This document shows, piece by piece, positions 33,826-33,939 of a DNA stretch of 64,000 nucleotides. The notes under the pieces are model-generated. The model worked only from the letters and a program-made list of their open reading frames with translations, did not search any database and was not told the DNA's origin. Positions within the stretch are counted from its first letter, which is position 1, and every line of letters starts with the position of its first letter. The position numbers and the translations under genes are program-made. This stretch comes from Antiquaquibacter oligotrophicus (GTDB lineage Bacteria > Actinomycetota > Actinomycetes > Actinomycetales > Microbacteriaceae). The stretch lies in NCBI RefSeq assembly GCF_020535405.1, contig NZ_CP085036.1, forward strand, positions 2,728,001 through 2,792,000, written 5' to 3'.

Positions 33826-33831
33826 TACTCT
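33826..33831 (+). promoter_or_regulatory. Leaderless-type -10 (TACTCT) for the leuA leader peptide
   Basis: TACTCT lies exactly six bases before the GTG at 33838, so transcription should begin on the leader peptide start codon. Confidence 0.65.
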
Positions 33832-33837
33832 GAATAC

Positions 33838-33879
33838 GTGTTCGGTCTGCTTCTTCTTAGCTGCCGCGACGGGTCCTAA
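33838..33879 (+). CDS. leuA leader peptide
   Basis: Thirteen-residue reading frame V-F-G-L-L-L-L-S-C-R-D-G-S starting at GTG 33838 and ending TAA 33877-33879, with four consecutive Leu codons (CTG CTT CTT CTT). It sits 84 bases upstream of leuA. Runs of Leu codons ahead of leu genes are the classical sensor of leucyl-tRNA supply in attenuation. The frame starts exactly at the predicted transcript 5-prime end and has no Shine-Dalgarno sequence. Confidence 0.7.
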   Translation: MFGLLLLSCRDGS

Positions 33880-33901
33880 CCTCAGGCCTCACTCGTCGCG
33901 G
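33864..33901 (+). promoter_or_regulatory. leuA attenuator terminator stem
   Basis: CCGCGACG (33864-33871) pairs perfectly with CGTCGCGG (33894-33901), followed by CCTTTGCTGTTT. The 5-prime arm overlaps the Cys-Arg-Asp codons at the end of the leader peptide, so ribosome position on the Leu codons or stop can decide whether it forms. Confidence 0.65.
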
Positions 33902-33909
33902 CCTTTGCT

Positions 33910-33939
33910 GTTTGGTCTGACCCTCTTATCCAGACAAAC
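33910..33939 (+). promoter_or_regulatory. Second hairpin before leuA
   Basis: GTCTG (33915-33919) pairs with CAGAC (33931-33935), extended by GTTT (33910-33913) with AAAC (33936-33939) with one bulge. It lies between the attenuator stem and the leuA start and could be part of the alternative fold or hide the start region. Confidence 0.45.

Follow-up and report, generated by a model that had tools for sequence, protein, structure and literature searches.

The stretch of DNA analysed here (hereafter designated the window; 64,000 nucleotides, positions 2728001–2792000 of a 2.9-Mb chromosome) carries leuA, which matches the NCBIfam family of 2-isopropylmalate synthase and whose nearest named relatives belong to Microbacteriaceae. 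Upstream of this gene, the sequence TACTCT (33826–33831) is followed by GAATAC and then by a GTG codon (33838–33840), which opens, 6 nt past TACTCT, an ORF of 13 codons encoding VFGLLLLSCRDGS and ending with TAA at 33877–33879 (GTG TTC GGT CTG CTT CTT CTT AGC TGC CGC GAC GGG TCC TAA). The four consecutive Leu codons are followed directly on their 3′ side by a 12-bp stem (hereafter designated P1) that encloses a loop of 16 nt (Table 1). An earlier note on this DNA had described both the short ORF with four tandem Leu codons at this distance from TACTCT and a strong stem whose 5′ arm is formed by the last leader codons; the coordinates were re-read, and both descriptions hold. The whole arrangement before leuA is hereafter called the LEU element. 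Farther upstream, between the leuA promoter and the end (33765) of a permease-like gene, a GC-rich hairpin without a U-tract (GCGGGGCC...GGCCCCGC, 33772–33802) was seen by eye, and it is perhaps the terminator of the permease-like gene.

Table 1 Coordinates of the features of the leuA leader region in the window
Feature	Position	Strand	Basis
Extended −10 element TGT-TACTCT	33823–33831	+	Read directly; TANNNT spacing in 124 of 134 loci, TGn in 91 of those 124
Leader peptide ORF leuL, VFGLLLLSCRDGS and TAA	33838–33879	+	Predicted start is the first transcribed base
Putative sensor run CTG CTT CTT CTT	33847–33858	+	Sequence; CTT bias over 134 loci
P1 5′ arm	33863–33874	+	Pairing; compensatory changes at 3 of 10 pairs
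P1 3′ arm	33891–33902	+	Pairing; compensatory changes
S2 pseudoknot helix, P1-loop strand TCAGGCC	33882–33888	+	Own-versus-cross z −7.9
S2 pseudoknot helix, downstream strand GGTCTGA	33914–33920	+	Own-versus-cross energies
Linker between P1 and S2 (terminator tail of the earlier note)	33903–33913	+	Pairing; T content
Predicted leader-masked region	33941–33956	+	MFE fold of the window; comparative support
leuA, 2-isopropylmalate synthase, 588 aa	33964–35730	+	NCBIfam

The leader was compared at 136 leuA loci with a readable gene start (27 from the genus, 80 named, and 29 from the phylum sample), 135 of which passed the rule of an ORF with at least three Leu codons in a row; the sole miss, L042, has by inspection the leader MRFGRLLILSRRDEASI plus a stop codon, with LLIL in place of a pure Leu run. 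Leaving out this locus and L138, which comes from another class and lacks the hairpin, gave a set of 134 loci; L028 and L029, which contain no leuA start, are not among the 136. These include near-duplicates, and the pairing tests described below were run on 81 representatives; the leuA upstream region is the same in L015 and L032 and in L018 and L047, in each case a genus genome and a named Salinibacterium record. Comparison of the 134 loci shows a conserved distance between the end of TANNNT and the in-frame start codon, which is 5–9 nt in 124 of them (6 nt in 102, 7 nt in 15, and 8–9 nt in 7) and 10 nt in the remaining 10. When the upstream sequences were shuffled in 200 rounds, a distance of 5–9 nt occurred in 12.1 of the 134 loci on average and in 20 at most. 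The −10 element of the real loci is mostly preceded by TGn (Table 1). The chosen start codon is GTG in 78 loci and ATG in 56, the leader stop codon falls within the P1 loop in all 134, and P1 begins 5 nt past the Leu run in 121. Moreover, CTT makes up 238 of the 486 run codons, in comparison with 191 of the 6010 Leu codons of leuA, a bias that fits pairing with the Shine-Dalgarno (SD) region and equally a rarely used codon serving as sensor. The −10 spacing supports the prediction that the leuL transcript starts at GTG 33838, that is, without a 5′ leader of its own.

P1 shows compensatory changes at three of ten pairs in a 50-sequence alignment, which took 50 of the 58 selected sequences; the anchored P1 pair counts refer to the 123 of 134 loci, and the 71 of 81 representatives, with CCGC at the anchor. 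The loop of P1 pairs in turn with a strand located about 10–21 nt after P1 (helix S2), giving a predicted H-type pseudoknot. Among the loci with a P1 of at least 9 bp (76 of 81), to which the S2 test was limited, the own-versus-cross energies gave a z value of −7.9 at +10 to +21, with negative values at 57 of the 76 loci; the adjacent offsets (+4 to +13) gave −3.4 to −6.6, and some distant offsets reached −2.8 (+25) and −3.8 (+58). Pairs of S2 were not counted on the MAFFT alignment, because the strands misalign between families. No covariation of S2 was detected within the set of elements before leuC (z −1.7 to +1.3), in which the S2 strands hardly vary. A search of the Rfam 15 families found none above the curated threshold, and the three matches obtained at a lax threshold were all below the gathering scores.

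In 130 of the 134 loci, the 12 nt that follow P1 contain no run of more than three T, and an intrinsic terminator with a U-tract was not found at the leuA leader, as judged from the T content after P1. The segment CCTTTGCTGTTT (33902–33913), which the earlier note had taken for a terminator tail, was rejected in that role on its T content and fits instead the linker of the covarying pseudoknot. Since it links two covarying helices and a U-tract is absent, attenuation at a terminator is not supported. A consensus terminator scan of the + strand also gave no match; it considers only loops of 3–8 nt, to which the 16-nt P1 loop is invisible, and provides no evidence either way.

Pairing between the leader and the SD region was analyzed with double-centred own-versus-cross energies, using a 15-nt probe that was moved along the element and paired with the SD region; this procedure was adopted because a control segment passed the uncentred test (12 of 5000). 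For the 81 leuA representatives, z values of −2.9 to −4.1 were obtained only where the probe covers the end of the Leu run, and values at all other offsets were between −2.1 and +1.5. For the separate leuC set (28 of 29 matches; L218, whose start was not found, was omitted), z values lay between −2.4 and −4.2 at offsets of +3 to +9 relative to the end of the run, and the remaining offsets gave nothing stronger than −1.9. These comparisons show, at the level of sequence, that the Leu codons covary with the downstream SD region in the leuA loci and, separately, in the leuC loci. When the whole leader was paired with the start region, the 76 of 81 leuA loci for which a −10 call and sufficient sequence were available (used for the pairing map as well) gave z −6.9, with 0 of 5000 permutations, against +0.4, −1.6, −0.5, and −2.0 for four controls. 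At leuA, the pairing seems to continue in the direction of the leader start and of the leuA start codon. No extension to the leader start was observed for leuC, where the 5′ half gave z 0.2 and the whole leader z −2.3, barely beyond its control (−2.0).

The MFE fold of the window has the expected masking shape (z −3.7; 1 of 200 shuffles was as good): AGAAGA (33941–33946) pairs with TCTTCT (33852–33857) of the Leu run and AGACC (33952–33956) with GGTCT (33844–33848), giving 6 + 5 pairs beside a weak SD-like stretch, GAAAAG (33948–33953), which sits between the two masked segments. In the close relatives L002, L006, and L010–L012, only four contiguous pairs are present in this base stem. MFE folding was dropped as a proof of SD masking, as real loci were little above chimeras, with masking in 53 of 76 real leuA loci against 42–50 for chimeras and in 20 of 28 real leuC loci against 15–21. 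In the leuC element of the same genome, CTTCTTCGT pairs with ACGAAGAAG in a fold that began at the third base of the leader, and the pairing between Leu codons and SD region is clearer there than at leuA.

The distribution of the element was examined with R1, a covariance model derived from 50 leuA elements and hence trained on Leu runs. This genome gave two strong matches, before leuA (E 5e-11) and before leuC (E 3e-11), the next having an E value of 0.23; the second element (G000:C1:2418355-2418436; L139 about 1501–1582, L176) has a leader encoding MRFELLLRRRDEV and a stop codon. R1 matched 116 of 120 sampled genomes of the family, 76 of which have at least two matches, 143 of 148 genomes of the class sample, and 14 of 149 genomes of the phylum sample, 13 of these 14 belonging to the window's class. 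Within the family, the element is present at 29 of the 30 leuC loci that match best, and R1 gave no match at the remaining one, L198. We inspected 92 distinct match places, chosen partly as second or third matches (L262 was dropped as the same place as L195), and found 70 of them before a leuA-type gene (including second leuA genes and five leuA loci that have a divergent leuB), 13 before leuB, 8 before leuC, and one, L231, in a locus with none of the four seed genes, which was taken as false. At 33 leuA-type places outside the distance rule, the extrapolated start overlaps the model end (−21 to −84 nt) or is undefined (L253), and at one leuB place, L238, another gene lies between the element and leuB. 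Gene identities rest on an NCBIfam check for one second LeuA, two LeuB, and one IlvE, and on tblastn to such seeds for the others. Second leuA genes with a LEU element of their own were observed in L226–L230, L232–L235, L237, L239, L241, and L244, and in many second-leuA elements the P1 core is changed on both sides (CCACGGCGGGG with CCGTGG). The targets beyond the first leuA (second leuA, leuC, and leuB) are an apparently unreported extension of a known element; no LEU element before leuC or leuB was found in literature titles and abstract starts, where subscription journals are poorly covered.

The elements before leuB differ in their putative sensor codons, which are Val/Leu/Ile codons (L191, L194, L195, L236, L240, L242, L243, L251, L264, L267, L268, and L269). 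The 12 readable leuB leaders, such as MRQVLVLITCRGGA and MRFVLILRCRDGA, represent a small number of families and cannot be counted as independent cases. All 12 contain Ile and 11 contain Val, but LLL is absent throughout, even though R1, which detected them, was trained on Leu runs. The corresponding numbers for Ile, Val, and LLL are 4, 15, and 134 for the 134 leuA leaders before the hairpin part, where LLL was the selection rule, and 2, 3, and 27 for the 29 leuC leaders. Of the 13 leuB loci, 9 have ilvE following leuB and four end in or just after leuB; IlvE serves all three branched-chain amino acids. Val and Ile codons before leuB argue for sensing by the ribosome over a protein-bound element, and this exchange is, on the side of sequence, the best argument for ribosome sensing. 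In L191, L194, L195, L236, L240, and L243, a short ORF with similar endings (ALDLRDNGGE, AMDRRDNGGE) was seen between the element and leuB; this ORF may constitute the operon's first gene.

Collectively, we consider it probable that the LEU element before leuA is a leaderless leader embedded in a pseudoknotted RNA, working most likely by translational attenuation with Leu codons in dual use. In the free RNA, the P1/S2 pseudoknot would form and the leader codons, chiefly the Leu run, would pair with the ribosome-binding region of leuA, which would be off as long as this region is paired. A ribosome would load on the 5′-terminal GTG and, when charged tRNA-Leu is scarce, would stall in the Leu run, where it would cover the run and the 5′ arm of P1 and set the leuA start region free. 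The Leu codons would be sensor and anti-SD strand simultaneously. On this dual use, replacement of the Leu codons also destroys the mask, so that mutants should lose repression rather than inducibility; altered codons would leave leuA free of control and not locked, a possible explanation for the non-classical results with leader-codon mutants given in the available text of Seliverstov et al. 2005 (PMC1262725).

It is more likely that control acts on the ribosome-binding region of leuA than through a terminator. Transcription attenuation, in which P1 would act as a terminator that needs no U-tract and readthrough would follow when a ribosome stalled in the Leu run blocks the 5′ arm of P1, is unlikely: P1 is a strong stem of 10–12 bp whose usual 5-nt distance from the Leu run places it within reach of the stalled ribosome, and terminators are described for the S. 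lividans leuS and trp leaders in the available text of PMC8079986, but the T runs after P1 are short at nearly all leuA loci, S. lividans leuL1 is reported in the same text without a typical terminator, and neither S2 nor the covariation of the Leu codons with the SD region would be explained. It appears quite improbable that Rho acts in the leader at a site exposed or hidden by leader translation, a mechanism suggested for mycobacterial cys leaders in the available text of Seliverstov et al. 2005 (PMC1262725); the apparent lack of an intrinsic terminator would suit it, but it does not predict pairing of the Leu codons with the SD region. We regard as very improbable a binding site for a regulatory protein or ligand at which leader translation is not the sensor. 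The compact conserved pseudoknot and the leader-codon mutants cited above are compatible with such a site; against it stand the occurrence of Val and Ile codons in the leuB elements and the class-wide preservation of start codon, spacing, and reading frame. With respect to the earlier note's overall reading, the predicted leaderless start and the putative ribosome sensing of leucine are supported, the former by the conserved −10 spacing and the reported leaderless leuL1 of S. lividans, the latter indirectly by the conserved codons and their Val/Leu/Ile counterparts in leuB elements, and its terminator is not.

Translational attenuation with dual-use codons may be extended to the whole pathway: LEU would then be a codon-programmable translational attenuator in which one chassis stands before leuA, second leuA, leuC, and leuB-ilvE, the codons being exchanged (Leu to Val/Leu/Ile) to fit the operon products and co-evolving with the downstream SD because they are also the anti-SD strand. 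We give this broader proposal an even chance. Through the exchanged leuB codons and the separate leuC copies, the mechanism can be tested directly in laboratory actinobacteria, among which there are producers of amino acids.

The question of how the LEU element works dates from 2005, when Seliverstov et al. (PMC1262725) predicted it upstream of leuA in actinobacteria and, in the text available, read it as a protein-binding site; classical attenuation is reported not to account for the leader-codon mutants of S. coelicolor, and the authors considered ribosome sensing unlikely. The feature in the window is a new member of this known kind; evidence on its mechanism and an apparently unreported extension of its targets are added here. 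As far as the available text describes it, the 2005 element shares with the present one the position upstream of leuA in Actinobacteria, a leader ORF with a Leu run, a pseudoknot (likened by description, not helix by helix), and a base stem between the Leu codons and the SD box of leuA, for which the support here is statistical, from 81 loci; an 'alternative hairpin' is also named. In that text, LEU is assigned only to leuA and one transposase gene, and leuC, leuCD, and leuD do not occur, only words such as leucine, whereas leuC, second leuA, and leuB are added here; the exchanged sensor codons and the predicted leaderless start likewise differ from the 2005 description. The leuL1 leader of S. 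lividans (MRFGLLLLSCRGEGL; available text of PMC8079986) likewise precedes leuA, is reported leaderless, and is without a typical terminator, but belongs to another family, and in loci of Streptomyces type that share its leader, L122 among them, the −10 distance is 10 nt. Leaders of leuA have also been reported, in sources available in part, for C. glutamicum and C. diphtheriae. The polycysteine leaderless ORFs of mycobacteria (Canestrari et al. 2020, as cited in the available text of PMC13236596 and PMC9031893) resemble the LEU element by description, in that amino-acid supply controls downstream translation through a short ORF with a codon run, but they concern cysteine and cys genes rather than leucine. 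The ilvB, trp, and leuS attenuators of Actinobacteria, according to the available accounts, resemble the LEU element in that their leader peptides, several of them leaderless, abound in the amino acids under regulation, but most are reported with a terminator followed by a U-rich stretch, of which the LEU element has none.
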